64,000 nucleotides of DNA from Pantoea cypripedii (GTDB lineage: Bacteria > Pseudomonadota > Gammaproteobacteria > Enterobacterales > Enterobacteriaceae). The notes below the pieces were generated by a model that saw only the letters and a list, made by a program, of their open reading frames with translations, was not told where the DNA came from and did not search any database. Below, one piece after another: positions 1,697-16,884 of this stretch; position 1 is the first letter of the stretch; the number at the start of each line of letters is the position of its first letter. The DNA lies in the NCBI RefSeq assembly GCF_002095535.1, contig NZ_MLJI01000002.1, positions 815,786-879,785 on the forward strand. Reading direction: 5' to 3'. Position numbers and translations under genes: made by a program.

Positions 1697-3244
1697 ATGA
1701 CTACGTCAACCATCGTCCTTGACGCTGTCCCACTCACTGCTGATGCGGTGGCTGCTATTGCCCGTCGCGGGGCAAAGCTGGTATTGGGAAACGAAGCACT
1801 TAACCGAATCCGCCAGGGCCGTGGCCTGGTTGAGCGATTCGCGGCGCAACAGAAACCGGTGTACGGGCTGAACACCGGGCTGGGTGCCAGCGTTGATACC
1901 AAACTGGCCGCCGCCGATCTCATCGCCTTCCAGCGCAGTGTCACCCATAGCCACAGCGCGGGTGTTGGCCCAATGTTGCCGGTGGAAGCGGTGCGAGCGC
2001 TGCTGACGGCGCGCATCTCCGGCATGGCCGCAGGTGGTACCGGTGCCTCGGAAAACGTGATTTCCGGCTTGCTGGCGGCGCTGAATGCCGGGGTCCATCC
2101 GGTCATTCCTTCCTGGGGATCCATCGGCGCTGCAGATCTGTTACCGCTGGGACATCTGGCTAAAGCGTTGCAGGGACATGGCAATGCTGAATACCAGGGT
2201 CGTATCATGCCCGCCACAGAAGCGCTGGCGCTGGCTGGACTGCCACTGATTGATCTGCGAGAGAAAGATGGTCATGCGATGGTGGTGGCAAACAGCCTGT
2301 CAACCGGCACCGCCTGCCTGGTGCTTGAAGATGTGCAGCGGTTTATTGACTGGTCGCTGGCGGCGGTAGCCCTCAACTATGAAGGATTCCGTTCACAGCT
2401 CACCGCTATCGATGCTGCGGCCCTCGCGGCTCGTCCGGCTTTCGGCCAGCAGGAAATTGGCAAACGCCTGCGCAGCCTGTTATCCGGCAGCGATTTGTGG
2501 CGCGATGGCGCAGCACGGCGTCTCCAGGATCCGCTGAGTTATCGCTGTGTGCCACAGGTCTGGGGTGGGTTGATCCACGCCCTCGAACAGGCACGACAGG
2601 CCACGGAGATCGAGCTGGGGAGCTCAGGTGATAACCCGGTGATTCTGGCCTCCAGTGAACGCATCGTATCGAATGGCAATTTTGACCTGACCGCATTTTC
2701 TCTGGCGTGGGAACAGGTGGGGCAAGCGCTGGCGCATTGCGCTGCGGGTATTGCCAACCGTTGTTTGCGCCTGATGTCGCCAGCTGCGGCTGAACTGCCA
2801 CGTTTCCTGTCAGCCAGTGGACAAAGCCGGGCGGGCTACGCGGAATTACAAAAACCGCTGGCGGCGCTGGAAGCTGAAATCCGCCATCTCGCCAATCCGA
2901 TATCGATCACCCCGCTGGCGGTTTCTGATGGTATCGAGGATCAGGCGTCGATGGCTCCCAGGGTGGTTGCCAAAGTGCAGGCGATTATCGAACGGCTGCG
3001 CTACCTGGTGGCGATCGAACTGATGAGTGGCGCAGTCGCCGTGGAATTACGTGGCGTGGTCGATGTGCTGGGTGACGGCCCGCGTCGTGCTTATGAGATG
3101 GTGCGCCAGTGGGTCCCGCCAATGGAAGAAGATCGGGAACTCAGCACCGACATGGAAAATATCTACCAACTGGTATCAGGAGCCTGCCCGATCGGCGAAA
3201 ACCACACTCAGCTGAGTGATGCAAATTTAACGCATTCAGAATAA
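1697..3244 (+). CDS. Aromatic amino acid lyase homologue lacking the MIO tripeptide
   Basis: A 515-residue member of the histidine/phenylalanine ammonia-lyase superfamily. The catalytic-loop Tyr is present (PVYGLNTGLG, Y56), as are SSGDNPV and DQASMAPR. In classical enzymes the MIO electrophile forms from Ala-Ser-Gly in a GSxGASGDL motif. Here the segment reads GSIGAADLLPLGH (A145-A146-D147): one residue shorter, with Ser-Gly missing, so MIO cannot form by the known route. The usual QDPYS is QDPLS. Ergothionases are, from memory, homologues that eliminate trimethylamine without MIO. With a quaternary-amine binding protein next door, a betaine-type substrate is inferred. The ATG at 1697 follows AGGGAA; an upstream in-frame TTG at 1661 has no better support. 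First gene of an operon running to 8987. Confidence 0.8.
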   Translation: MTTSTIVLDAVPLTADAVAAIARRGAKLVLGNEALNRIRQGRGLVERFAAQQKPVYGLNTGLGASVDTKLAAADLIAFQRSVTHSHSAGVGPMLPVEAVRALLTARISGMAAGGTGASENVISGLLAALNAGVHPVIPSWGSIGAADLLPLGHLAKALQGHGNAEYQGRIMPATEALALAGLPLIDLREKDGHAMVVANSLSTGTACLVLEDVQRFIDWSLAAVALNYEGFRSQLTAIDAAALAARPAFGQQEIGKRLRSLLSGSDLWRDGAARRLQDPLSYRCVPQVWGGLIHALEQARQATEIELGSSGDNPVILASSERIVSNGNFDLTAFSLAWEQVGQALAHCAAGIANRCLRLMSPAAAELPRFLSASGQSRAGYAELQKPLAALEAEIRHLANPISITPLAVSDGIEDQASMAPRVVAKVQAIIERLRYLVAIELMSGAVAVELRGVVDVLGDGPRRAYEMVRQWVPPMEEDRELSTDMENIYQLVSGACPIGENHTQLSDANLTHSE

Positions 3245-3353
3245 CCGTTATTTCCGCTTTACCCGGACGGCACGACGAGAATAGTGAGAACACTCACGCA
3301 ATCTGCCGTCCGAAAAACACCAACCTTAAATAAACATCGAAGGGAAAGTCATA

Positions 3354-4232
3354 ATGAAAAAAAGAGTGATAGCATTATTCAGTGCCTGTGCATTTATATT
3401 AATGCCCTGGGCCGCGAGCTATGCCGCAAGCACGACCACTTCAATTACCGTCGGCTCAGCCGATTTCCCGGAAAGTCAGTTGCTCGCCACTATTTATGCC
3501 AAAGCGTTATCTGCAAAAGGTATTACGGTGAAAACACGCATGAGCATTGGCAGCCGCGAAGTTTATATGCCGGCATTACTGGATGGGTCCATTGATCTGT
3601 TGCCGGAATATACCGGAGCCGCACTGAGTTATCTGAAAAAAAATCCTGCTGCCCATACGCCCGATGAAGTCGCTGCGGGTTTAAAGGCGGCTTTACCTAA
3701 AGGGATCACCATGCTGACCCCATCGCAGGCTCAGGATGCTGATGCGGTGGTGGTGACGCGCGCCACGGCAGATAAATACCAACTGAAAACCCTCGCTGAC
3801 CTGGCCCCGGTGGCGGACAAGATTGTCTTAGGCGGATCACCTGAGTGGAAAACCCGTACTGAAGGGTTGCTCGGCCTGGAAAAGGTCTACGGTCTGAAGT
3901 TTAAGGATTACAAGGCACTGGGTATCGGGCCGATCACCCTGACAGCTTTGCTCAACGGGCGAATTCAGGCGGCAGAACTCACCTCAACCGATCCCGCCAT
4001 CGCCAGCAAAAACCTGGTGGTACTGGACGACGTTAAATCGTTGTTTATGTCACAAAACATTGTGCCGATTATCGCGGAAAGCAAAGTGAGTGACACGGTG
4101 AGCCAAACGCTGAATGCGGTATCCGCCGCCCTGACCACGGCCGATCTCACCCGCATGAACGAACGCCTCGCAAACTATGACAGTTTCGATGTGGTAGCCA
4201 GCGACTGGCTGAAAGCCCACAACCTTAATTGA
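3354..4232 (+). CDS. Quaternary-amine (glycine betaine/choline type) ABC substrate-binding protein
   Basis: 292 residues with a signal peptide (MKKRVIALF, hydrophobic core, cleavage near SYAAS). The mature part resembles OpuAC/OsmX/ProX-type proteins: ITVGSADFPESQLLATIYA, SIGSREVYMPALLDGSIDLLPEYTG. These bind betaine, choline or carnitine in the periplasm. No permease or ATPase gene accompanies it, so it either uses a transporter encoded elsewhere or this is an orphan binding protein. Its place between the lyase and the CoA-transferase suggests that the pathway substrate carries a quaternary ammonium group. Start ATG follows GAAGGGAAAG. Confidence 0.82.
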   Translation: MKKRVIALFSACAFILMPWAASYAASTTTSITVGSADFPESQLLATIYAKALSAKGITVKTRMSIGSREVYMPALLDGSIDLLPEYTGAALSYLKKNPAAHTPDEVAAGLKAALPKGITMLTPSQAQDADAVVVTRATADKYQLKTLADLAPVADKIVLGGSPEWKTRTEGLLGLEKVYGLKFKDYKALGIGPITLTALLNGRIQAAELTSTDPAIASKNLVVLDDVKSLFMSQNIVPIIAESKVSDTVSQTLNAVSAALTTADLTRMNERLANYDSFDVVASDWLKAHNLN

Positions 4233-4257
4233 TATCCGTCTGAACAGGATAAAAACG

Positions 4258-5451
4258 ATGGCAGAAAAGGTGGGTCCCCTTAATGGTGTGACCGTGGTTG
4301 ATTTCACGCGCATGCTTGCTGGCCCGTTTTGCTCAGCGACCCTTGCCGATTTAGGCGCAGAGATCATCAAGATTGAGCCGCCGCACGGCGACGATCAGCG
4401 TGGCATTGGTGCGATGAAAGACGGGCTAAGTGTCAGTTTCGAACTGCTTAACCGCAACAAACGCAGCCTGAGACTCGATCTCAAGCAGGAAGAGGGCAGA
4501 CGTATTGCCCTGCAACTCGCGGCAGAAGCGGATGTCGTGCTGGAAAACTTCCGCCCTGGCGTTGCGGATAAGTTGGGTGTCGGTTATGAGGCGGTTCGGG
4601 AACGCCGTCCGGATACGATTTATTGCTCGATCTCGGGCTTTGGCCAGGTCGGTCCGATGGCCAGGGCACCCAGCTATGACGTGGTTGCGCAGGCGCTATC
4701 GGGACTGATGAGTATCACCGGTCAACCGGACGGTGATCCAACCCTGGTCGGTGATTCCATTGGTGACATCCTGGCAGGCATTTATGCCGCGATGGCGATT
4801 CCCGTCGCGCTATATCGGCGGGCAACAACCGGGCAGGGTAGCCGGATCGATGTTGCCATGTTTGATTCATTGTTCAGCCTGCTGCCGACGGCGCTGGCTA
4901 AATGGCAGGTAACGGGTTTGTCGCCTGAAAGAGTGGGTAATCGCCATCCGCTAACCGCACCTTTTGGTGCCTTTATGGCGGCGGACGGTCCTTTCATGCT
5001 GGCGGTGGCGAATGACAAGTTGTTCAGCACCTTAGCCAGTGCAATGGGACAACCCGAGCTGGCGCAGGATCCGCTTTTTGCCACCGATCCGGCACGTTTT
5101 GTCAATCGTGATGCGCTGACAACGGTCATTGAGACCTGGGCTGGGCAGCTGACCACTCACGACGTTGTCGCGCAGCTTACCCGTTTTGGCTTACCGGCCT
5201 CCACGGTGTGGACGGTGGAAGAGGCCGCCAATAGTGAACAGGTTGCCTCTCGCAACCTGATTTCAGGGGTTGAACATCCGGTCCTTGGCCCCTTGTCCCT
5301 GCCTGAACAGCCGGTTCATTTATCGGGTTCTGAACGCGGCCAGCAAAAACGTGCGCCGCACCTCGGAGAGGATGGCGCTGCAATTCTTGCTGAACGTTTG
5401 GGGTGTTCTGCCGAGGAGATCGCAGTGCTGCGATCCTCTGGCGTGATTTAA
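4258..5451 (+). CDS. Class III CoA-transferase (CaiB/BaiF family)
   Basis: 397 residues, normal for the family. Visible signatures are the N-terminal GVTVVDFTRMLAGPFCSATLADLGAEIIKIE, typical of CaiB/Frc proteins, then ENFRPGV, and SYDVVAQALSGL with the likely catalytic Asp at residue 141, which forms the aspartyl-CoA anhydride. Members move CoA between carboxylic acids, for example in carnitine and oxalate metabolism. In this operon it would activate the unsaturated acid released by the lyase. It starts 25 bases after the binding-protein gene with AGGA upstream. The substrate is not readable from sequence. Confidence 0.88.
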   Translation: MAEKVGPLNGVTVVDFTRMLAGPFCSATLADLGAEIIKIEPPHGDDQRGIGAMKDGLSVSFELLNRNKRSLRLDLKQEEGRRIALQLAAEADVVLENFRPGVADKLGVGYEAVRERRPDTIYCSISGFGQVGPMARAPSYDVVAQALSGLMSITGQPDGDPTLVGDSIGDILAGIYAAMAIPVALYRRATTGQGSRIDVAMFDSLFSLLPTALAKWQVTGLSPERVGNRHPLTAPFGAFMAADGPFMLAVANDKLFSTLASAMGQPELAQDPLFATDPARFVNRDALTTVIETWAGQLTTHDVVAQLTRFGLPASTVWTVEEAANSEQVASRNLISGVEHPVLGPLSLPEQPVHLSGSERGQQKRAPHLGEDGAAILAERLGCSAEEIAVLRSSGVI

Positions 5452-5472
5452 CCATCAATTGAGGTCTGTCTG

Positions 5473-6270
5473 ATGGATACAAAAGGCAAAGTTTACATTG
5501 TGACGGGATCGGCAACGGGTGTGGGTGCCGCGACTGTACTGCAACTGGCACAACGCGGTGCCAGGCTTGTCATCAATTTTACCCGCAGTCAGGAAGAGGC
5601 CGCGCAGACGGCTGCGGCCTGCGAGGCATACGGTGCCGAAGTTGAACTGATACAGGCGGATGTTGCGCAGGATGATCAATGCCGCAGGCTCGTCAATGCA
5701 GCGATTGAACGCTGGGGTCGCCTTGATGGCCTGGTCAACAATGCTGGCGTCACCGTGAAATCCGATCCCTTCGACCTCGAAACCCTGTCAGCGGATGATT
5801 TCCAGCGAGTGTTCGGCGTCAATGTGGTTGGCTGCTATCAGATGTGCAGAGCGGCGTTACCCTGGCTGCGCGAAAGCCAGGGTTCCGTGGTGAATGTATC
5901 GTCGCATGTGGCGTTCACCGGTGGCGGAAGTTCACTGGCGTACACCGCGTCAAAAGGGGCGATTAACGCCCTGACTCTGGCACTGGCGCGAACACTGGCT
6001 CCTGAAGTGCGGGTTAACGCCGTGTGTCCTGGCGTGATCGATACCCGCTGGATGCGTAATGCGATGGGGGAGGATGCCTATGCGAGCTTCGCGGAACGTC
6101 AGGCCTCGATGACACCGCTGGGTCGGGTGGCGACCGCTGAAGATGTCGCCCAGGCCATCGTGTGGTTGCTACAGGGCGCTGACTTTATTACCGGTGAGCT
6201 GCTGTGTGTCGATGGCGGATTCCGGTTGATGGGCGGTCTTCGTAAGACTGCTGCCGGGAGTGTAAGTTAA
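5473..6270 (+). CDS. Short-chain dehydrogenase/reductase
   Basis: 265 residues, classical SDR: nucleotide-binding TGSATGVGAA, NNAG at the expected distance, Ser in NVSSH, and the catalytic YTASK. The C-terminal stretch FITGELLCVDGG is typical of FabG-like members. A role as 3-hydroxyacyl-CoA dehydrogenase after the MaoC-type hydratase fits the operon order but is inference. It is followed directly, without a gap, by the MaoC-type gene. Confidence 0.85.
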   Translation: MDTKGKVYIVTGSATGVGAATVLQLAQRGARLVINFTRSQEEAAQTAAACEAYGAEVELIQADVAQDDQCRRLVNAAIERWGRLDGLVNNAGVTVKSDPFDLETLSADDFQRVFGVNVVGCYQMCRAALPWLRESQGSVVNVSSHVAFTGGGSSLAYTASKGAINALTLALARTLAPEVRVNAVCPGVIDTRWMRNAMGEDAYASFAERQASMTPLGRVATAEDVAQAIVWLLQGADFITGELLCVDGGFRLMGGLRKTAAGSVS

Positions 6271-7146
6271 ATGTCACTCCATGCTGATGACCTGTTCGCC
6301 TATGCTATCCCGGTCACGCATGCTCGCGTGACCACCAGGGACGCGTTGCTCTATGCGCTATCGACAGGTTATGCGACGCGACCACTCGACCCACAGCAGT
6401 TACGTTATAGCTATGGTCCCGATCCCATCGCCGCGCTGACCCTTGCCAATGTTGTCGCCCATCCCGGCCCGTGGATGCGCGATGCAGGTGTGAACTGGAG
6501 TGGTGTGGTTCACGCCGAGCAACGGTTAATCATTCATCGTGAAATGCCACTCGACCAGGACCTGGTCTGCACTTCCCGCATGGTCAGCGTTGTCGATAAA
6601 GGGGCTGAAAAGGGGATGTTTGCCAGTTACCAACGCACTCTTACCACTGCCGATGCAGGTGTGGTGATTGCGACGATCATCCAGACCGACGCCTGTCGAT
6701 TCGATGGGGGCTGTGGCTCGCAGGGGACGCCGCCTCCGGCATTATTGCGTGTTCCCGAACGTGAGGCCGATAAGGTTGTGGACATTGTTATACCTCCGGA
6801 TGCCGCACTCCTTTACCGCCTGAACGGTGACTTCAATCCACTGCATGCCGATCCTGCGTTTGCCCGGTCTGCCGGTTTTGAACGACCGATTCTGCACGGG
6901 CTTTGCACCCTTGGTCATGCGGGGCGTGTGGTCGCTGACTGGGTTGCGCAAAACGACGGGAGAACACTGCAAGCGATAGATGCCCGCTTCACGGCCGTGG
7001 TCTTTCCTGGCGATCGGCTTACGGTAGAACAGTGGATTGAAAATGCCCAGGTTCGTTTCAGAGTGCGCGCACCCGAGCGTAACAGCACGGTGATCGATTG
7101 TGGCACAGCGCTTCTGCCATCCGCAGCCCGTAGCGGCGATCATTAA
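6271..7146 (+). CDS. MaoC-like hot-dog hydratase/dehydratase
   Basis: 291 residues with two hot-dog halves. The N-terminal half resembles the FAS1-like dehydratase domain (HAEQRLIIHREMPLDQDL). The C-terminal half has the (R)-hydratase signature GDFNPLHADPAFA followed by RPILHGL; the Asp and His of this motif are the catalytic pair in MaoC/PhaJ enzymes. The likely reaction is reversible hydration of a 2-enoyl-CoA. It starts on the base after the SDR stop codon, so translation is probably coupled. Together, CoA-transferase, hydratase and SDR form a beta-oxidation-like side-chain route; no thiolase is present. Confidence 0.82.
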   Translation: MSLHADDLFAYAIPVTHARVTTRDALLYALSTGYATRPLDPQQLRYSYGPDPIAALTLANVVAHPGPWMRDAGVNWSGVVHAEQRLIIHREMPLDQDLVCTSRMVSVVDKGAEKGMFASYQRTLTTADAGVVIATIIQTDACRFDGGCGSQGTPPPALLRVPEREADKVVDIVIPPDAALLYRLNGDFNPLHADPAFARSAGFERPILHGLCTLGHAGRVVADWVAQNDGRTLQAIDARFTAVVFPGDRLTVEQWIENAQVRFRVRAPERNSTVIDCGTALLPSAARSGDH

Positions 7147-7160
7147 CCGGACAAATATCG

Positions 7161-8987
7161 TTGGAAACCGCCCAGCTCTCGTATTTCATTTTGGCATGTC
7201 AGTTTCGTAATCATGCTGAAGCAGCAACGTATTCACAGGTGCCGCCTTCGACCATGAGTGAGAATAACCATGCACTGGAGCGTGAGCTGGGATTAACCCT
7301 GTTTCAGCGTGGCCCGCACGGGCATTACCCCACGGAGGCGGCCCGCTGGCTCTATCAGGTGGTCGAGCCGTTGTTGCAGGCGGTCCAGGCTGCACAGGGG
7401 ATAGTGGCGCAGCCGGATTTGCTCTCCCTGCGTTATCTGGATGTGACCTCGCCCTTACAATTTATGGTCGGGCATCTTGCCCGTACCACCAGCCTGGCCA
7501 TCGCGGCGTTAATGCGCTCAATGCCGGGGGTGGTGGCGCGTGCTCACTTCGCCCTGAGTCGCCCTCCTTATATCCATGTGCTTGATAAACACCAGGGCAA
7601 TGAGCAACCAGACGTGGTGCTGAATTACGCCGCCAATGCTGATGAACCTGATGGCGCGGTAATTTTGCGGGATGAATGGATTTCCCTCGCCGGTCCGGCT
7701 CTGGGCAAAGCCCCTGGTGCCAGCACCCTCACTTTTGAGGCGTTGCGCAGTGCGCCGCTGTATGTGCCGCCGCTGGATCCCGTACAACTGGCGCAAATCC
7801 GCCATTACTGCCGCGCGCATGATTTACCACCACCGAGGGTGATTGAAGAAGATGTCGGCACATTTGAGCGACTCTCACGAGAACAGCAACCCTTTCATCT
7901 GCTGGCACCGCGCAGTCTGGTGGCGGCCAGTGCCGAACGTTCCACTCTGCGGCCCCAGCGTTTGCCGGTTGATCTGGCGGCGGTGATTGTTGCCCATTTT
8001 AGCGCGGGGGATGAGGTTGCGGCCTGTTTTGTTGAGCATCTGCGCGCCATCATTACGACTGACAATCCCGTCATCGCTTACAAACCTGGTATCACCATCA
8101 GGCAGCTCCGTTACTTTCTTGCTGTCTCGGAACGTTTAAATGTGACAGCGACTGCCCGGCAATTGCATGTCGCCCAACCGGCGTTATCAAGTCAAATCAG
8201 TAAACTGGAGGCGACGCTGGGGATGACGCTTTTTCAGCGCAGCCGCAAAGGCCTGATCCCCTGTGATTCGGCACATCTGCTGCGTGACCTGATGCGCCCG
8301 GCGCTGCTTGCCTGTGAAGGCATCACCGCCGCAGCGAGCTACTATGCCGCCTGTCGCGAAGAACGCCTGACGATCGGCATCACTCCTGTCAGCAACCATG
8401 ACGCACCGCTGGCGCAGGGTCTCGCGCTGACTATCGCAGCATGGACGCAACGCTATCCCAGCGTGAAACTCCGCATCACAGAAGGATCGGCAGAAACGTT
8501 GCGGTGTTGGGTGGAGTCTGGCGAAGTCGGATTTGCCATCGTAGCAGGTGAGGGTGATTTGTCGCGCGTGGATGCACTTGGGGTGATATCCCGTGCACAG
8601 CACCCCATCAGCAAACCGGGTGCTATCACGCTGTCCGAGGCACTCAAACTCCCGCTGGTGTTGCCTGGACCTGAGGTGGATTTACGGCAGCAACTGAATA
8701 AAGCCGCTGCGGAGATTGCGGCCAGCGTCACACCCGCCATAGAAGTCGGCTCGCAGTCGCTGATTCTCGCCCTGGTTAAACAGATGCCGCTGGCTGCCAT
8801 CATGCCAGCGTCAGCTGTCACCCGGCTGGTGGCAGAGGGCGTGCTGCAATTTAACCCCATCTGCGCTCCCCACCTTACCTATGGCCTATCCTTTCTCTGC
8901 CCGGATAACCGCACACTGACGCAGATGGAGCAGGATCTGCTGGCGCTGCTGGGTGAATATCTCCAGCTGGAGCCGAATCAGCTTTGA
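7161..8987 (+). CDS. Double LysR-type regulator (two complete LTTR units in one chain)
   Basis: 608 residues, about twice the length of a LysR protein. Residues 1-60 form a diverged LysR winged helix-turn-helix (QLSYFILAC, then ELGLTLFQRGPHG), followed by an effector domain to about 300. A second, canonical LysR HTH starts near residue 311 (ITIRQLRYFLAV, AQPALSSQISKLEATLG, LFQRSRKG) with its own effector domain. The reading frame is open throughout, so this is a true fusion. The start is a TTG at 7161, giving the usual LTTR opening; an ATG start would remove the first helix. It is the last gene of the operon and may regulate it or the downstream ubiD/ubiX pair. Confidence 0.85.
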   Translation: METAQLSYFILACQFRNHAEAATYSQVPPSTMSENNHALERELGLTLFQRGPHGHYPTEAARWLYQVVEPLLQAVQAAQGIVAQPDLLSLRYLDVTSPLQFMVGHLARTTSLAIAALMRSMPGVVARAHFALSRPPYIHVLDKHQGNEQPDVVLNYAANADEPDGAVILRDEWISLAGPALGKAPGASTLTFEALRSAPLYVPPLDPVQLAQIRHYCRAHDLPPPRVIEEDVGTFERLSREQQPFHLLAPRSLVAASAERSTLRPQRLPVDLAAVIVAHFSAGDEVAACFVEHLRAIITTDNPVIAYKPGITIRQLRYFLAVSERLNVTATARQLHVAQPALSSQISKLEATLGMTLFQRSRKGLIPCDSAHLLRDLMRPALLACEGITAAASYYAACREERLTIGITPVSNHDAPLAQGLALTIAAWTQRYPSVKLRITEGSAETLRCWVESGEVGFAIVAGEGDLSRVDALGVISRAQHPISKPGAITLSEALKLPLVLPGPEVDLRQQLNKAAAEIAASVTPAIEVGSQSLILALVKQMPLAAIMPASAVTRLVAEGVLQFNPICAPHLTYGLSFLCPDNRTLTQMEQDLLALLGEYLQLEPNQL

Positions 8988-9000
8988 TTCGGCCAGCCAT

Positions 9001-10362
9001 TTAATAATCTGCCAGGTTTTGACGTACACGTTCGTATATATCGGCAGGGGGGCGTACGAATTCTGAACGGCCCCCTGGCTCGCCATCTCCTGGCCGGGTG
9101 GTTGCGACCATGCCAATCTTGGTTACGGTCAGGTTCTCATGCACCGGATCGCAGCGATCGGCCTTCACGCCCGGTAGCACAATCAAATCCTCATGACCAC
9201 GGAAGCGCGCCGCCAGCGACCACTCCACCTGACGCGGGTCTTCAATATCGACGTCATCCTCAACCACAATGATGTTCTTGAGCAGATTCACTAAGCCCAT
9301 CGCCAGCAACACGGCGCGTTTGCCCTCACCGGCGCGCGGGCGATGCATGGAAATCACCGCATGCAGGCGTCCCATGCCGCCTTCAGTGATCAGCACCCGC
9401 CTGACGGAGGCGATCGAACGTTGCAGATCGCGTGTGAGGGTGGCACCGATGGCAACCGCGCCCAGCAGGCAATGTTCGGCAGCATAACCGGGCAGGATGG
9501 CCTGGTAGAGCGCATCCTGCCGATGCGTAACGCACTTAATTTCGCCGCCGATGCCTGGCCCATAATAAACATAGAATCCAGGAAACTCGGAGACTGCGCC
9601 TTCTTCGATCAAGTCGCTCGGGTACAGCTCACCCTCAAGAACGATTTCCGCATGAGCGGGGACTTCCAGATCAACCGTCTTGCATTTGACCAGTTCAACG
9701 CCTTCGCCCAGCAAACCACCGGCAATATCAAACTCGTCGTCGCCGAGGCCCACATACATTTGTGACCCCAGCAGCACCGCCGCATGATTACCAATGGCGA
9801 CAGCGATTTCGAGGGCATGGCCTCGTTGCTGCGCCTTCTCCGCCAGCATGGCGAGATGATGGTTCTTCGCAATCCCGGCCATGATGCGACCACCGCCTTC
9901 CAGACGTAAGCGGGCAATAGAGACATTGCGGCGGCCGGTTTCGGGATCTTTCGCCACAATGACACCGGCGGTGATATAGGGGGCGCTCTCTTTTTCGAAC
10001 CAATGGGGGACTGGCAGCAATGCGCCTAAATCGAAAGGGGCATGATGAACGACGGATTGCACTGGCGCATCTGCAACCATGACTGGGCTGACAGGATTTT
10101 GCAGGGCATGCAGGCAAACGGCATCGAGTTCGCTGGCATCAATCTCCAGCGCCTGGGCAAAACGGGCGCGCGCGTTGAAGAGATTACCGATGACCGGCAT
10201 GGAACTCTGACTGACATTGGCAAACAGCTGCGCCGGACCACGTTCACGCAGGGCAAGCACCGCCGCGATTTCAAATTTTGCATCGACGTTGCGGGTAATG
10301 CGTTTTAATTCGCCGGTCTTTTCCAGGCTGGACATAAATGCACGTAGGCTTTGGTCTACCAC
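9001..10362 (-). CDS. UbiD-family prenyl-FMN-dependent decarboxylase
   Basis: 453 residues. Family features are the N-terminal LRAFMSSLEKTGELKRI, central NVSIARLRLEGGGRIMAGI, and AVSEFPGFYVYYGPG, which contains one of the catalytic Glu residues of the Glu-Arg-Glu set. The C-terminus is rich in Asp and Arg as in other members. UbiD enzymes reversibly decarboxylate aromatic, heteroaromatic or alpha,beta-unsaturated acids and need prenylated FMN from a UbiX partner. That partner is encoded divergently at 10595. The start is a GTG with AAGGA nearby. Whether it acts on products of the lyase operon, with which it converges at 8987/9001, is inference. Confidence 0.85.
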   Translation of the reverse strand: MVDQSLRAFMSSLEKTGELKRITRNVDAKFEIAAVLALRERGPAQLFANVSQSSMPVIGNLFNARARFAQALEIDASELDAVCLHALQNPVSPVMVADAPVQSVVHHAPFDLGALLPVPHWFEKESAPYITAGVIVAKDPETGRRNVSIARLRLEGGGRIMAGIAKNHHLAMLAEKAQQRGHALEIAVAIGNHAAVLLGSQMYVGLGDDEFDIAGGLLGEGVELVKCKTVDLEVPAHAEIVLEGELYPSDLIEEGAVSEFPGFYVYYGPGIGGEIKCVTHRQDALYQAILPGYAAEHCLLGAVAIGATLTRDLQRSIASVRRVLITEGGMGRLHAVISMHRPRAGEGKRAVLLAMGLVNLLKNIIVVEDDVDIEDPRQVEWSLAARFRGHEDLIVLPGVKADRCDPVHENLTVTKIGMVATTRPGDGEPGGRSEFVRPPADIYERVRQNLADY

Positions 10363-10594
10363 TTACCCGTATCCTTAGCAGGAAACTGCGTATCTGTTCA
10401 AAATGCAGAGAAAATGTCAGCAGGTTGCCGTCGCTCTCTCTGCGCGAAAGGGGGAGCATATCCTGTTCGTCAGCGCAGCGATAATTGCTTTTTTCGAAGC
10501 CGGTCATCACTAAAAGCGAAGAGATAGATTGCTTGCTAAGTGTTTGATGATGCGGCAAAGTCGGCGCTCATTATCCCTTGTTCAGAGTTCAGTT

Positions 10595-11167
10595 ATGCAG
10601 CGAATCATTATCGGTATTTCCGGTGCCAGCGGGGTTATTTACGGTGTGCGGATGTTGCAGGTGCTGCAACAGGTTGCCGAAGTGGAAACCCATCTGGTGA
10701 TGAGCCAGGCCGCCCGACAGACTCTGGCGCTCGAAACGGATTTCACGCTACGTGAGGTGCAGGCGCTGGCTGATGTGGTCCATGATCAACGCGATATTGC
10801 CGCCAGTATCTCATCCGGTTCCTTCAAGACCGCCGGGATGGTGATTTTGCCCTGTTCGATTAAAACCCTGTCGGGGATCGCACACAGCTATACCGATGGT
10901 CTGCTGACACGGGCAGCGGATGTGGTGCTGAAAGAGCGCCGCCCACTGGTGCTGTGCGTGCGGGAAACGCCTTTGCATATCGGGCACCTGCGTCTGCTGA
11001 CCCAGGCCGCAGAGATGGGGGCGGTGATCATGCCGCCCGTGCCAGCCTTTTATCATCGACCGCAAACCTTGCAGGAAATCGTGGATCAAACCGTCAACCG
11101 CGTGCTGGATCAGTTTGATATCGCGCTACCGCAGGATCTGTTTACCCGCTGGCAGGGTGCTTATTGA
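10595..11167 (+). CDS. UbiX-family flavin prenyltransferase
   Basis: 190 residues beginning MQRIIIGISGASGVIYG, the standard UbiX opening; a longer TTG reading from 10529 adds 22 residues unlike the family. Other signatures are SGSFKTAGMVILPCSIKTLSGIAHS, RRPLVLCVRETPLH and the MPPVPAFY region. The enzyme attaches a dimethylallyl group to FMN, making the UbiD cofactor. It is divergent from the UbiD-family gene, and the 232 bases between the two starts probably hold both promoters. Its last 7 bases overlap the 3' end of the Fic gene on the other strand. Confidence 0.9.
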   Translation: MQRIIIGISGASGVIYGVRMLQVLQQVAEVETHLVMSQAARQTLALETDFTLREVQALADVVHDQRDIAASISSGSFKTAGMVILPCSIKTLSGIAHSYTDGLLTRAADVVLKERRPLVLCVRETPLHIGHLRLLTQAAEMGAVIMPPVPAFYHRPQTLQEIVDQTVNRVLDQFDIALPQDLFTRWQGAY

Positions 11168-12237
11168 TTCAACTCCTGCAACAACCGGGTGTTGATATAT
11201 AACTTCTCACGCCCGACATTCATTTCTTCCAGCACGCCGATTTCGACCAACTGCTTCAGATAAGATGATGCCGTCTGACGTTTTGCGACGCCGTGTTCAA
11301 CCAGGTTTTCAATGCGGCAATAGGGTTGTGCAAAGAGAACCTGAAGTAATTCATGAGTATAGATTTTGGGCAGTTTTTCCCGGACATAGTCAGTCGCTTC
11401 CGCCACCAGGCTACGTACAATCGCGATTTTTTTGGTTGTCCATTTTGCCGTGTTTTCCACGGCTTCCAGCATAAAGAGGATCCATGCTTCCCAGTTGCCC
11501 TCCGCGGTTACGCTGCGCAGCAAGGTGTAGTAATCATCACGTCTTTCGAGGATGAAACGGGAAAGATAGAGGATCGGCAGTGACAGTAGCTCAGTCTGGA
11601 TCAGATAGAGGATATTCAGGATACGGCCTGTACGCCCGTTCCCGTCCGGAAAGGGGTGAATGCATTCGAACTGGTAGTGAGAAATCGCCATTTTCACCAG
11701 TGGATCGATATCATCCTCGGCGTGTATGAAGCGTTCCCAGTTTGCCAGCAAATCACGAATGGCGGATTCACCGACTGGCGGCGTGTAGACCACATCATGG
11801 TTCTGGTCACGTAACACCGTACCCGGTGTTCTGCGGATATCGGTTTGCACCGCGCGCAACCGGGTACAAATCGATACTGCGGTATTGGTACAGAGCGGAT
11901 GTGTTGCCAGTTGGCTAAAGCCCTCAAACAATGCGCTGCGATAGCGCAGGGCTTCCTTCGTGGCGGGATCGGCATGTTCGGCGCGGTCCGCAAACTGGAA
12001 GAGCTGGTCGCTGGTGGTCACAATGTTCTCGATGCGGGAAGAGTCCTTTGCTTCCATGATGGGCAGGATATTGATCAGTAAACCCTGATCGGGGATCAAT
12101 TCGCCTGCGGTTTTCAGCTCCGCAACGGCCGCGCGCGCACTGATACAGGCTTTGAGCACTGCGCGTGTTTCAATGCGATCGAGATCGGGAGGAAGTAAAG
12201 GGAGTTCATTGTAGGGGGTTTCTGGCTGCCAGCGCAT
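11161..12237 (-). CDS. Fic-family protein with C-terminal winged helix
   Basis: 358 residues. An N-terminal Fic_N-like domain is followed by the Fic core with the complete active-site motif HPFPDGNGRTGR. Such proteins usually transfer AMP to hydroxyl side chains of targets. The C-terminal part (YTHELLQVLF, KRQTASSYLKQLVEIGVLEE) looks like a winged helix-turn-helix, as in autoregulating Fic proteins. No separate antitoxin gene was seen. Its ATG lies at the edge of a 70-bp tandem repeat array, probably its control region. It converges on, and slightly overlaps, the UbiX gene. Confidence 0.88.
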   Translation of the reverse strand: MRWQPETPYNELPLLPPDLDRIETRAVLKACISARAAVAELKTAGELIPDQGLLINILPIMEAKDSSRIENIVTTSDQLFQFADRAEHADPATKEALRYRSALFEGFSQLATHPLCTNTAVSICTRLRAVQTDIRRTPGTVLRDQNHDVVYTPPVGESAIRDLLANWERFIHAEDDIDPLVKMAISHYQFECIHPFPDGNGRTGRILNILYLIQTELLSLPILYLSRFILERRDDYYTLLRSVTAEGNWEAWILFMLEAVENTAKWTTKKIAIVRSLVAEATDYVREKLPKIYTHELLQVLFAQPYCRIENLVEHGVAKRQTASSYLKQLVEIGVLEEMNVGREKLYINTRLLQELNQ

Positions 12238-12410
12238 ATGTTTAAAAAAACCGATTTTATCGACATATCGCCATAATATGTCGATGCCATAAACATGTCA
12301 CGGCCATATGTTTAAAAAAACCGATTTTATCGACATATCGCCAAAACGTGTCGATGCCATAAACATGTTACGGCGACATGTTTAAAAAAATCGATTTTAT
12401 CGATATATCC
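12235..12410. repeat. 70-bp tandem repeats with nested palindromes upstream of fic
   Basis: The block TTTAAAAAAA begins at 12241, 12311 and 12381, an exact 70-base period. The first two units are nearly identical; the third is cut short near 12410. Each full unit holds ATCGACATAT and its inverse 7 bases apart (perfect in unit 1, two mismatches in unit 2). AAACATGT and ACATGTTT flank the unit junctions (perfect at 12361-12383). The array starts at the Fic start codon and ends about 110 bases before the MFS gene. It looks like a multi-site operator. Confidence 0.85.
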
Positions 12411-13818: not shown

Positions 13819-13907
13819 ACCATTTCACCGGGTCGTAGCGGCGCGATTTATCGCGCGCCTTTTGGCAGAGGCAGCGTTGTGAATAGCGCGATAAATCGCG
13901 CCGCTAC
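13810..13907. repeat. Palindromic repeat pair (BIME-like) between two convergent genes
   Basis: A 22-base element with a GCGCGATTTATCGCGC core lies at 13835-13856, and its exact inverse at 13886-13907. A separate hairpin, ACCCGGTGAA against TTTCACCGGGT, lies just before it and overlaps the MFS stop. The second arm contains the stop codon of the YopJ-like gene. The same core occurs at 23614 and 57864, so it is a dispersed extragenic repeat. It may also act as a bidirectional transcription stop. Confidence 0.75.
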
Positions 13908-16036
13908 CAGTCCCTGGACGGGTGCTGCATCAGCTGCAACGTCTCCGCCAGCCGTTCCAGGCGGGCATATTCGATAGCCGGGAGATATTTCGCTGGAATC
14001 CCGGTGACGCCCCCAGGCTCGTAGCATTTTGCCTTATACCACTCGGATTGCTGATTGACGCTTCTCGGCTCTGATTTACCCATCCATCCCAGCACCTTAT
14101 CAGCCAGTGCCTGTTCTGACGCGGGAATAGTACGCCATACCTGCTGGAGCACTTTTTCGGAGGGAGTATGCCGGTAGAAATCTGCCGGTAACACATTGGG
14201 CCAGTACAGCTCCACACCATACTTTCTGGAGAGTTCGACCCATTTTGTCAGGAAATTAGTGGGATTTTCCAGGTACGCTTCCCGCTCTGGCTGACTGAGA
14301 AATGCGGCGATATCGGTCATCCCGGATACGGTGGTTTGTAATGATGGGTGGAAGGGCGGTTCTCCCGCTTGCTGCCGACGATGGCAGGCCTGGAAAAATT
14401 CCGCATGCTGCCAGGCGGTACGGGCGAACGTCAGACAATAAATAATACAATCCCACTGGCTTTTTTGCGCAAAAGCGCCGATGACGCTAATGCGGCTATG
14501 GATCAGTTGTGGCGTGCTTTTTAGCATGGATGTTAAGCGCTGGTGAATGACATCGATAATGCCTCCTCCCAGATGCGCCGCGCTCTGGACAACCATCAGC
14601 GATGGCGGTTTGCCAGCGGAAAAGACCATGTCGAGATACAAATGATGGCTATTACTTTTCTTTGTCACCGGTGCCCATAAGATACAGCGATTATGTATTA
14701 ACTGGCCTGTTTCCTGAGCGTGATTATGTGCTGACAGAATATCAGCCAGCAGCGCGGCGAGGGATGTAAATGATTTCAGATTGATATCAGGATGCCGGAT
14801 ATTTTCATTCCGTATCAACGCGGGTAATAGCTTCCTGTCACGCTCCCAGCTTTCCCACGTAGGTGCCAGCCCGGCATCGATATCATTGGCGGATAAATGC
14901 CAATGGTTTTTCAACGCGCTAAGGGTGGTATTGTCAGAATAACGATAGTTGAGAAAGTCTGGTCGGTTGATGGTATTAATGCCGGATGACTCACCTTTAC
15001 CATTTAACGTTAAAATTGCGCGCGCTTGCAAATCAGCATATCGGAACGCTAAAGAACGTGAAAACTCCGGGTCATAATGCCGCTTAATCTTTCCGGGCAG
15101 AGAGGCGGTGACATAGGCCGAGGGGTATTGGGTTTTCTGTAGCAAAAGCATCTGCACCGCATTGTTATCAAAGCATTTTTTCGCCACGGTCGTCAGCATT
15201 TTTTTGCTCTGCGTATGTTTAATGAATTCAACGGGCAAAATGGAAGAAGGGTGATGAATAACGTCTGGAAAAAATTCGTCTGATAGCGGAATAAAGGGAG
15301 GAGAATCATTTCTGGCATGCTGGTTATCATGCCACTCTTGAAAAAGTTCCCGATATTTATATGATTTAAGCGAAAAATCCAGACCAAAACGAACGCAATC
15401 CCACGTTATCTTTTGGGCACCAATACCGATCACACTGATATTCGAGTAAACACGACGGCCATCTTCTCGTCGAATACTCACCAAACGATCGCCAGATAAG
15501 CCAGATACGATGTCTCTCATCATTTGACGGGATGCCATGGATAACGGATCGCAGGAATCAATAACGATAAACGAAGGATTCATACCCGGTTTCAGCGAGA
15601 CATCAATAAATTGCGCGTGGGAAATCGTTGGCCTGGCGTCAGTGGCATTATCGTTAGCCACAATATAGCGACCATGGATGGCTTCACCTTTCTGGTTCAC
15701 CTCTTCCTGGTCACGTTGCAGGCTGGAAATAAAGTGATGGATGGCAGGAGAGAATCTGAGATTGAGCGCGGGGTTGCGGTCATTTTCCGCCTGCACCAGT
15801 AGCGGCAAGGTTACGCTGATATCTTTCAGGAAATCATCCTGGTTGGTGGGCTGACCATTTTTTATCGCATATAAATGTTCACGGAGCCGGTGTTGCAACG
15901 TTAACGAGGCGGGAGAGCATTGGCAGTTTGCCGCTTTTAACACCGCCGATTTGAAAAGATACTGCTGATTAATAATGAAGTCTTGGGTGACGGGAGAAGG
16001 GGAGAGTGTCAGGGCAGTGGCATCCGTATGCATCAT
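13904..16036 (-). CDS. Two-domain YopJ/HopZ-family acetyltransferase-like effector
   Basis: 710 residues holding two tandem copies of a YopJ (C55) domain. Domain 1 (about 60-245) shows the His-acid-Cys arrangement of YopJ: H140 in ISHAQFIDV, D160 in FIVIDSCDP, C214 in AQKITWDCVRFGLDF. Domain 2 (about 400-570) aligns with H464 in SHHLYLDM and C530 in AQKSQWDCIIYCLTFA, but has Q484 (LMVVQSAA) where the acid should be. YopJ proteins are type III effectors that acetylate host Ser/Thr/Lys. No secretion genes lie in the window. ATGATG at 16036 follows AAGGA at the end of licT, so it is probably co-translated with the bgl operon. By eye it is more AT-rich than its neighbours, suggesting acquisition. 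Family assignment is from motifs only. Confidence 0.75.
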   Translation of the reverse strand: MMHTDATALTLSPSPVTQDFIINQQYLFKSAVLKAANCQCSPASLTLQHRLREHLYAIKNGQPTNQDDFLKDISVTLPLLVQAENDRNPALNLRFSPAIHHFISSLQRDQEEVNQKGEAIHGRYIVANDNATDARPTISHAQFIDVSLKPGMNPSFIVIDSCDPLSMASRQMMRDIVSGLSGDRLVSIRREDGRRVYSNISVIGIGAQKITWDCVRFGLDFSLKSYKYRELFQEWHDNQHARNDSPPFIPLSDEFFPDVIHHPSSILPVEFIKHTQSKKMLTTVAKKCFDNNAVQMLLLQKTQYPSAYVTASLPGKIKRHYDPEFSRSLAFRYADLQARAILTLNGKGESSGINTINRPDFLNYRYSDNTTLSALKNHWHLSANDIDAGLAPTWESWERDRKLLPALIRNENIRHPDINLKSFTSLAALLADILSAHNHAQETGQLIHNRCILWAPVTKKSNSHHLYLDMVFSAGKPPSLMVVQSAAHLGGGIIDVIHQRLTSMLKSTPQLIHSRISVIGAFAQKSQWDCIIYCLTFARTAWQHAEFFQACHRRQQAGEPPFHPSLQTTVSGMTDIAAFLSQPEREAYLENPTNFLTKWVELSRKYGVELYWPNVLPADFYRHTPSEKVLQQVWRTIPASEQALADKVLGWMGKSEPRSVNQQSEWYKAKCYEPGGVTGIPAKYLPAIEYARLERLAETLQLMQHPSRDW

Positions 16037-16038
16037 AT

Positions 16039-16884
16039 TTATCCTTCCATGGGTGGCTCGGCGATTCGCACCAGATGGACGATCAGCCACAGCAGCTCAT
16101 CATCCGTCATCCCTACCTCAAGCATCTTTTTCACATAATCATTGATCGCCAGCGCACAGCGATGCATGCGCGGATGCTGCTGAATGATCTGCGGCAGCAA
16201 GGTATTACCCTGACTGTGGTTCAGCTGCCCGGCAAACATGCGCTGAATAAAAAACTGCATATGAATCAGAAAGCGTGAGTAGTTGAGAGAACCGGTGTCG
16301 ATGGTGATATAGGCATGGTACTGAATAATATTGAAGATATCTTTGAGCATACGCATTGCCAGTAGCGTCTGGCTGGTATCACTGTGTTCAGACTGACCAT
16401 TCACCAGATGAAAGGCGATATTACCCGCTTCCTCAGGCGGCAGTTCGAGCTGGAACTGGCTGTTGAGCCGGGTCACCACCTGCTGCGCCAGCGTGAACTC
16501 CGCTGGCCAGAAGCGCTGGACCTCAAACAACACGCGGTTTTGCAGCATGATGCCTTTACGGCTGCGTTCCACGGCAAACATCAGGTGATCGGTCAGAGTA
16601 AAGAAGATTTGCGGACGCAGCGGATTGCTTAGCCCCTGCTGCGCCATCTGCATCACCAGCGCCGTCATCTGGAAAACTTCTTCCGGCATGGCGGCGAAAG
16701 CATTGAGATATTCCGCGCCCGGCAGGTTTTCCTGCACCATAAACAGCTTCTCGACTTTTTCCCGTGGGATCATGTCGCCGACGCGGCTGCTGAAACCGAT
16801 ACCTTTACCCATCACGATGGCTTCCTTGCCATCGCGATCTTCGGTCAGCACCAGGCTGTTGTTCAGGACTTTAATGACCTTCAT
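16039..16884 (-). CDS. BglG/LicT-family transcription antiterminator
   Basis: 281 residues. The N-terminal RNA-binding (CAT) domain is MKVIKVLNNSLVLTEDRDGKE followed by VMGKGIGF. Two PTS regulation domains follow, with their conserved His residues in LTDHLMFAVER, NIAFHLVN and LIVHLVRI. These are phosphorylated by the PTS and control dimerisation. The active dimer binds the RAT stem-loop in the operon leader, which is visible at 20262-20287, and blocks the terminator. Here it is the third gene, after bglF and bglA, rather than the first as in E. coli bglGFB. Confidence 0.92.
   Translation of the reverse strand: MKVIKVLNNSLVLTEDRDGKEAIVMGKGIGFSSRVGDMIPREKVEKLFMVQENLPGAEYLNAFAAMPEEVFQMTALVMQMAQQGLSNPLRPQIFFTLTDHLMFAVERSRKGIMLQNRVLFEVQRFWPAEFTLAQQVVTRLNSQFQLELPPEEAGNIAFHLVNGQSEHSDTSQTLLAMRMLKDIFNIIQYHAYITIDTGSLNYSRFLIHMQFFIQRMFAGQLNHSQGNTLLPQIIQQHPRMHRCALAINDYVKKMLEVGMTDDELLWLIVHLVRIAEPPMEG

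Follow-up and report, generated by a model that had tools for sequence, protein, structure and literature searches.

How would a bacterium put to use a lyase of the phenylalanine/histidine ammonia-lyase (PAL/HAL) family that lacks the 4-methylideneimidazole-5-one (MIO) tripeptide, and on which substrate might such an enzyme act? The question is raised by a locus of Pantoea cypripedii (assembly GCF_002095535.1, contig NZ_MLJI01000002.1, positions 815,786 to 879,785), a stretch of 64,000 nucleotides that is referred to here as the window and is part of a 1.416-Mb contig in a 6.55-Mb genome. Near its start, the lyase gene is followed by genes for a binding protein, a coenzyme A (CoA) transferase, a short-chain dehydrogenase/reductase (SDR) and a MaoC-type hydratase, with UbiD and UbiX genes nearby. 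Trimethylamine from dietary and plant betaines is relevant to host health and to the nitrogen economy of soil bacteria, and to our knowledge few lyases are known that free it from aromatic betaines. Judging from sequence comparison, the gene cluster probably removes trimethylamine from a histidine-like betaine by means of a relative of ergothionase. We further propose, at chances that appear evenly balanced to us, a catabolic gene set that would degrade, in three steps, an alpha-N-trimethylated heteroaromatic amino acid; its ring is most likely an imidazole, as in ergothioneine or a relative modified in the ring or at the sulfur.

The lyase has the PAL/HAL fold (PF00221), and its loop reads G-S-I-G-A145-A146-D147-L; the Ala-Ser-Gly of MIO is absent and the loop is one residue short. 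In the alignment, both this protein and the ergothionase of Treponema denticola (SSIGEGDI) show one gap at the Ala-Ser-Gly position of Pseudomonas putida HAL (GSVGASGDL). An earlier reading of the sequence alone (hereafter the sequence-only reading) had described the tripeptide as replaced by A145-A146-D147 with one residue deleted, and the alignment agrees. An Ala-Ser-Gly at residues 373-375 of the protein lies outside the MIO loop and is not conserved in an alignment of 21 rows. Among the best 120 of 682 matches, all 120 homologues carry a G-A-[A/G]-D loop. Identity as HutH was rejected, given the G-A-A-D loop and a score of 374.4 bits against a model cut-off of 539.15 bits. The window lyase resembles HutH in family and in the residues of the substrate side, but is devoid of Ala-Ser-Gly and of Tyr280.

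Both sequence and fold point to the Treponema ergothionase (PDB 6s7j/6s7q) as the closest solved relative, at about 30% identity. It shares the PF00221 fold and the one-residue deletion at the MIO triad, keeps Tyr53, Gln277, Arg283 and Glu414, and has Leu at position 280 and Asn at 197, as does the window lyase. The two differ in the loop (GEGD versus GAAD), and the window lyase has a His/Ala pattern. That ergothionase does without MIO is stated in PMC13405746, which cites the Treponema structure paper. No orthologue of the lyase was found in 35 genomes of the same genus, where full-length matches reached at most 37%. In the AlphaFold model, residues 142-145, 365-377 and 410-417 have a predicted local distance difference test score (pLDDT) below 50.

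A family alignment of 101 rows was built from the window lyase, the ergothionase, the HAL structure 1gkj and 98 stretches from related loci, at least four pairs of which are identical or near-identical. By loop, 4 rows have Ala-Ser-Gly, 86 are one residue shorter and 11 are three residues shorter. HAL position 280 is Tyr in all three natural Ala-Ser-Gly rows (1gkj being the Y280F mutant), and in the 97 rows without Ala-Ser-Gly it is Leu in 96 and Phe in one. Gln277, Arg283 and Glu414 are kept in all 97 of these, and Tyr53 in 95 (one His, one gap). Hence, the pocket would have lost its MIO-serving side while keeping the one that holds the substrate, as might suit a lyase whose substrate offers a good leaving group. 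In a tree of the 101 rows, those without MIO form one group with a support of 0.999; the rows with the one-residue deletion group at 0.61 only, with ergothionase and the window lyase inside, on long branches.

What happens to the product is suggested by the genes that follow. All five genes from the lyase to MaoC lie on the forward strand, separated by 109, 25, 21 and 0 bases, and their coordinates are as first stated; their families were confirmed with Pfam. Of the activities required for CoA-dependent beta-oxidation of an aryl acrylate, CoA activation, enoyl-CoA hydratase and 3-hydroxyacyl-CoA dehydrogenase are present in the window at the level of families, whereas thiolase, the fourth, is not among the genes of the cluster. 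Recurrence was counted within about 10 kb of the best 80 of 91 lyase loci confirmed in one scan of genome contigs. CoA-transferase, SDR and MaoC stand together beside a related lyase in 14 of the 80. Thirteen of these belong to Rhizobium, Ancylobacter or related organisms and use a family-I CoA-transferase that is not homologous to the family-III enzyme of the window, their SDR and MaoC proteins being 69-71% and 49-55% identical to those of the window. The remaining locus, in a metagenome-assembled genome (MAG) of Ancrocorticia, has a family-III CoA-transferase like that of the window, with an SDR of 58% and a MaoC of 45% identity. As Ancrocorticia is an actinomycete, the set spans two phyla. 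Activation, hydration and oxidation of the unsaturated acid, as proposed in the sequence-only reading, gain support because the trio recurs beside related lyases with two non-homologous families of CoA-transferase.

Further searches point to an association of lyase and trio that is real but optional. The MaoC gene is present in three of eight genomes searched as a whole (the genome itself, R. mongolense and Ancrocorticia). A phylum-wide search returned a match at 1e-40 in 31 of 398 sampled genomes, the own genome counted; beyond it, a match of about 50% identity (G317) comes from the Rhizobium operon described above, whereas the one that follows (G257, 41%) has none of the other query genes nearby. 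Rhizobium sp. ICMP 5592 (L158:6914-11376) has another type of MIO-less lyase followed by CaiB, 3-hydroxyacyl-CoA dehydrogenase and enoyl-CoA hydratase, all assigned at family level and below equivalog cut-offs; this cluster is divergent from an operon of the window type. A PhnD-like protein (PF12974) is encoded near MIO-less lyases in 22 of the 80 loci.

The UbiD and UbiX genes had been overlooked in the sequence-only reading. In a Hyphomicrobiales MAG (L038) with a lyase 77% identical to that of the window, a UbiD gene (83% identical) directly precedes the lyase gene on the same strand, with about 100 bases between them. The Ancrocorticia cluster unites UbiD, UbiX, CaiB, SDR, MaoC and lyase; here UbiX (40%) precedes the CoA-transferase and UbiD (40%) is found in the divergent arm. 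A mere chance neighbourhood of UbiD was rejected in view of these two orthologues. UbiD thus accompanies the lyase in three loci, the window included; distant UbiD/UbiX matches in L107 (26% and 49%) were left out of this count. Among nine genomes searched, an orthologue-level UbiD occurs only in the own genome and L038, six have none, and in one the match reached 32%. Near the UbiD-lyase pair of L038, genes at 3930-6043 on the reverse strand resemble, by eye, a Rieske oxygenase and its reductase. The nearest PDB relatives of the window UbiD are 6h6x and 6h6v (282 and 281 bits over nearly the whole length), which we take to be HmfF, a furan-dicarboxylate decarboxylase, followed by AnInD (161.3 bits), presumably an indole-3-carboxylate decarboxylase. 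Such relatives would suit removal of a carboxyl group from a heteroaromatic ring. With less weight, UbiD might act straight on the acrylate, since L038 has no MaoC.

Which betaine is degraded may be approached through the other lyases of the genome. It encodes four PF00221 proteins: HutH with Ala-Ser-Gly, a hut-linked protein with GSVGYLTHMAH, one with GSVGYLIATAH, and the window lyase. The third lacks three residues of the MIO loop and belongs to an operon of the S-methyl-ergothioneine type (G000:C2 ~594-609 kb; L035, L154), which the sequence-only reading had missed as well. Proteins of this operon exceed the cut-offs for S-methyl thiourocanate hydratase (978.5 versus 880 bits), S-methyl thiohydantoin desulfurase (565.9 versus 450 bits), ErtD (711.9 versus 600 bits) and ErtE (533.3 versus 520 bits). 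It also includes a BisC-type molybdoenzyme and a complete OpuC-type transporter, with a TonB receptor-like gene adjoining. Among the window proteins scanned there is neither S-methyl thiourocanate hydratase nor S-methyl thiohydantoin desulfurase, which are encoded at G000:C2 ~605-609 kb instead. Likewise, no thiourocanate hydratase was found among the eight window proteins scanned, a hydratase-like gene occurring in the Ancrocorticia cluster only. Plain S-methyl-ergothioneine was rejected as the substrate, as the separate operon meets those models; overlap is possible.

Operons for ergothioneine and S-methyl-ergothioneine (NCBIfam NF058529-NF058532, NF058538-NF058540) resemble the window in OpuC-type import and in a MIO-less lyase as the first enzyme. 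Their later steps rely on a urocanase-like hydratase, a desulfurase, ErtD and ErtE, all four absent from the window operon, which would proceed via CoA thioesters; CoA-transferase, SDR, MaoC and UbiD are not known as lyase partners from ergothioneine operons. The reference list of PMC13405746 includes a bacterial ergothioneine-sulfonate pathway. In R. mongolense, an operon of the window type coexists with a complete ergothioneine operon that contains a different lyase and a thiourocanate hydratase (1056.2 versus 930 bits). Taken together with the S-methyl operon of the own genome, this makes it likely that the window-type enzyme serves another substrate or another route. Plain ergothioneine may nonetheless be one possible substrate.

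One alternative is that the lyase is simply the ergothionase of this genome, the CoA genes, UbiD and UbiX serving an unrelated aromatic acid. It would agree with the nearest solved relative, and the genome has two urocanase-family proteins, one in the hut operon and one scoring as S-methyl thiourocanate hydratase, so that thiourocanate would lack a standard hydratase there. However, the trio beside the lyase in two phyla, UbiD at three lyase loci and the second lyase of R. mongolense speak against it, and we regard it as quite improbable.

Plain hercynine is also less likely: it would yield urocanate, for which the genome has the hut genes. For the hut-linked MIO-less enzyme itself (G000:C1 1368015-1369481; L036:16009-17499), which has GSVGYLTHMAH in place of Ala-Ser-Gly, a fitting role would be that of a hercynine lyase whose product urocanate enters the hut pathway. 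In related genomes, 29 best-lyase loci (L006-L034) comprise 24 with GSVGYL[TS]HMAH (L006-L028, L030) and 5 with a normal Ala-Ser-Gly.

An imidazole-type betaine is favoured over hypaphorine or the betaines of Phe and Tyr on four grounds: the window lyase retains the Ser-His selectivity pair of HAL and ergothionase as well as Glu414; Rhizobium operons of the window type include a HutC-type regulator (279.5 bits versus a cut-off of 220); the Ancrocorticia cluster contains genes like those of thiourocanate hydratase, desulfurase, ErtD and ErtE, its lyase being the only PF00221 protein found in the 2.2-Mb MAG; and the binding protein is paralogous to that of the S-methyl-type operon. The first three of these argue against a betaine of Trp, Tyr or Phe (hypaphorine or alike), whose acrylate would be converted to indole-3-carboxylate or hydroxybenzoate and decarboxylated by UbiD. 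This alternative draws on the usual fate of cinnamate-type acids, namely CoA-dependent shortening of the side chain, on AnInD as the second-best PDB relative of UbiD, and on lyase relatives mostly from plant-associated rhizobia; we consider it unlikely. The sequence-only reading had listed ergothioneine, hercynine and hypaphorine as candidates: the proximity of the lyase to ergothionase upholds the general idea, which is narrowed here to the imidazole type, with hercynine and hypaphorine downgraded.

A more difficult point is the binding protein, which the sequence-only reading had called a quaternary-amine binding protein. Its family (PF04069) and its context argue for such a ligand, whereas the residues of its pocket do not. 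In EgtU, the ergothioneine cage is formed by F293, N339, Y341, Y419 and Y443, with further contacts by K242, T296, E375 and R379, according to PMC9732360. The cage positions of the window protein are Y, D, D, T and Q; it has Ala at 242, Phe at 244 and Ala at 296, and retains E375 and R379. Hence, it does not belong to EgtU as defined by the five cage residues, K242 and G244, nor does it reach the OsmF glycine-betaine model NF049931 (96.4 versus 400 bits). It shares 58% identity with its counterpart in the S-methyl-ergothioneine-type operon, and the pocket pattern is mostly common to these two, a Rhizobium paralogue and the Ancrocorticia protein. The loss of most cage residues is the strongest result against the original wording, yet it is no verdict on the ligand, since a pocket of this type also occurs in the S-methyl-ergothioneine-type operon. 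As no permease or ATPase gene is present in the window operon, the binding protein probably shares those of that operon.

The replacement of cage residues by Asp, Asp and Gln may also indicate that the substrate is no betaine at all, and that the MIO-less lyase does something else, such as acting on another N-substituted amino acid. In addition, a gene of the ornithine cyclodeaminase (OCD)/mu-crystallin family (PF02423), without a role in the betaine scheme, occurs near MIO-less lyases in 44 of the 80 loci (within L061-L116) at no less than 61% identity to the R. mongolense copy. Yet the pocket shared with the S-methyl-ergothioneine-type operon may well accept a betaine, and the binding proteins of window-type Rhizobium operons retain N339, Y341 and Y443 along with K242 and T296. 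We find this explanation very improbable. The OCD gene is more conserved than the MIO-less lyases that it accompanies.

Returning to degradation of an imidazole-type betaine, several observations weigh against it. Position 83 holds Arg instead of His in Rhizobium relatives (Arg in 53 of the 86 rows with one deletion). The binding protein carries N339D, Y341D, Y443Q and K242A relative to EgtU, and most of the aromatic cage is gone. In most Mesorhizobium loci the lyase stands without these CoA genes, no MaoC match was found in the L038 or Mesorhizobium genomes searched, and no UbiD in the Rhizobium genomes searched; lyase, MaoC and UbiD are therefore not constant companions. Four genomes were searched for thiolase genes, and all four have them, but none near the cluster. 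The own genome contains no OCD orthologue (best match 32%), and the scheme leaves this gene unexplained. Finally, apart from general HutU, the ert-type proteins of Ancrocorticia stay below the curated cut-offs; in this MAG the genes for the hydratase and CaiB are broken or misassembled, which partly accounts for the low scores.

The features of the locus are compiled in the table. The ubiD gene is convergent with the LysR-type regulator gene, and ubiX is divergent from ubiD. Scans for promoters and terminators yielded no more sites than shuffled sequences. The first 20 kb of the window match five plasmid records, three of them from Pantoea, at no more than 85% identity over part of the length.

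Table. Genes at the lyase locus (positions within the window).
Feature	Position	Strand	Evidence
MIO-less PAL/HAL-family lyase, proposed trimethylamine-lyase; loop G144-A145-A146-D147	1697..3244	+	
Periplasmic substrate-binding protein, OpuAC/ProX-type, N-terminal signal-like stretch	3354..4232	+	PF04069 157.4 bits
Family-III (CaiB-type) CoA-transferase	4258..5451	+	PF02515 409.4 bits; no NCBIfam equivalog cut-off reached
SDR dehydrogenase, proposed 3-hydroxyacyl-CoA dehydrogenase	5473..6270	+	PF13561 201.7 bits
MaoC/hydratase-2-type enoyl-CoA hydratase	6271..7146	+	PF01575, PF13452, PF22622; best PDB match peroxisomal enoyl-CoA hydratase 2
Regulator with two LysR-type halves	7161..8987	+	PF00126 twice, PF03466; starts 14 bases past the hydratase gene
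UbiD-family decarboxylase, proposed for a heteroaryl acid	9001..10362	-	PF01977/PF20695/PF20696; TIGR00148 297.6 bits (cut-off 244.85)
UbiX-family flavin prenyltransferase, likely start 10595	10529..11167	+	NF004685 309 bits (cut-off 188)

Two further genes were noted downstream. A Fic-family protein is encoded at 11161-12237 on the reverse strand, with a 70-base tandem repeat just upstream (12235-12374; two copies, 94% alike). At 13904-16090, also on the reverse strand, two stretches of a 728-residue protein match the YopJ Ser/Thr acetyltransferase family (PF03421, 211.5 bits).

Based on this dataset, the following route may be drawn. For uptake, the binding protein would probably deliver its ligand to the permease and ATPase that the S-methyl-ergothioneine-type operon encodes on the same replicon. 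In the first step, as homology and conserved residues suggest, the lyase would rely on the conserved base Tyr and on Arg283, which binds the carboxylate; trimethylamine would leave without MIO, and an aryl acrylate would remain. In the second step, for which conserved gene order argues, the CoA-transferase would form the acryloyl-CoA, the MaoC hydratase would add water, and the SDR would oxidise the 3-hydroxyacyl-CoA. In the third and weakest step, a thiolase encoded elsewhere might release acetyl-CoA and heteroaryl-CoA; the transferase could then pass the CoA of the latter to the next acrylate, and the heteroaryl acid so freed may be decarboxylated by the prenylated flavin mononucleotide enzyme UbiD together with UbiX.

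More tentatively, and as a reading that we hold less likely than not, we hypothesize that this is an undescribed route for histidine-type betaines, in which a (thio)urocanate-like acrylate would bypass urocanase and pass by CoA-dependent beta-oxidation to a heteroaryl carboxylate for UbiD/UbiX, the CoA being recycled by the CoA-transferase. Such a route may have been put together repeatedly, drawing on unrelated CoA-transferases and, beside the second type of MIO-less lyase, on enoyl-CoA hydratase and 3-hydroxyacyl-CoA dehydrogenase instead of MaoC and SDR. In the open-access library searched, no CoA-dependent route for such betaines was found, which is weak evidence, as key papers on ergothioneine lie outside it. 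If true, the proposal would open a new catabolic route, and the G-A-A-D loop together with Leu at HAL position 280 would mark a whole group of MIO-free lyases that are now named histidine ammonia-lyase in databases.

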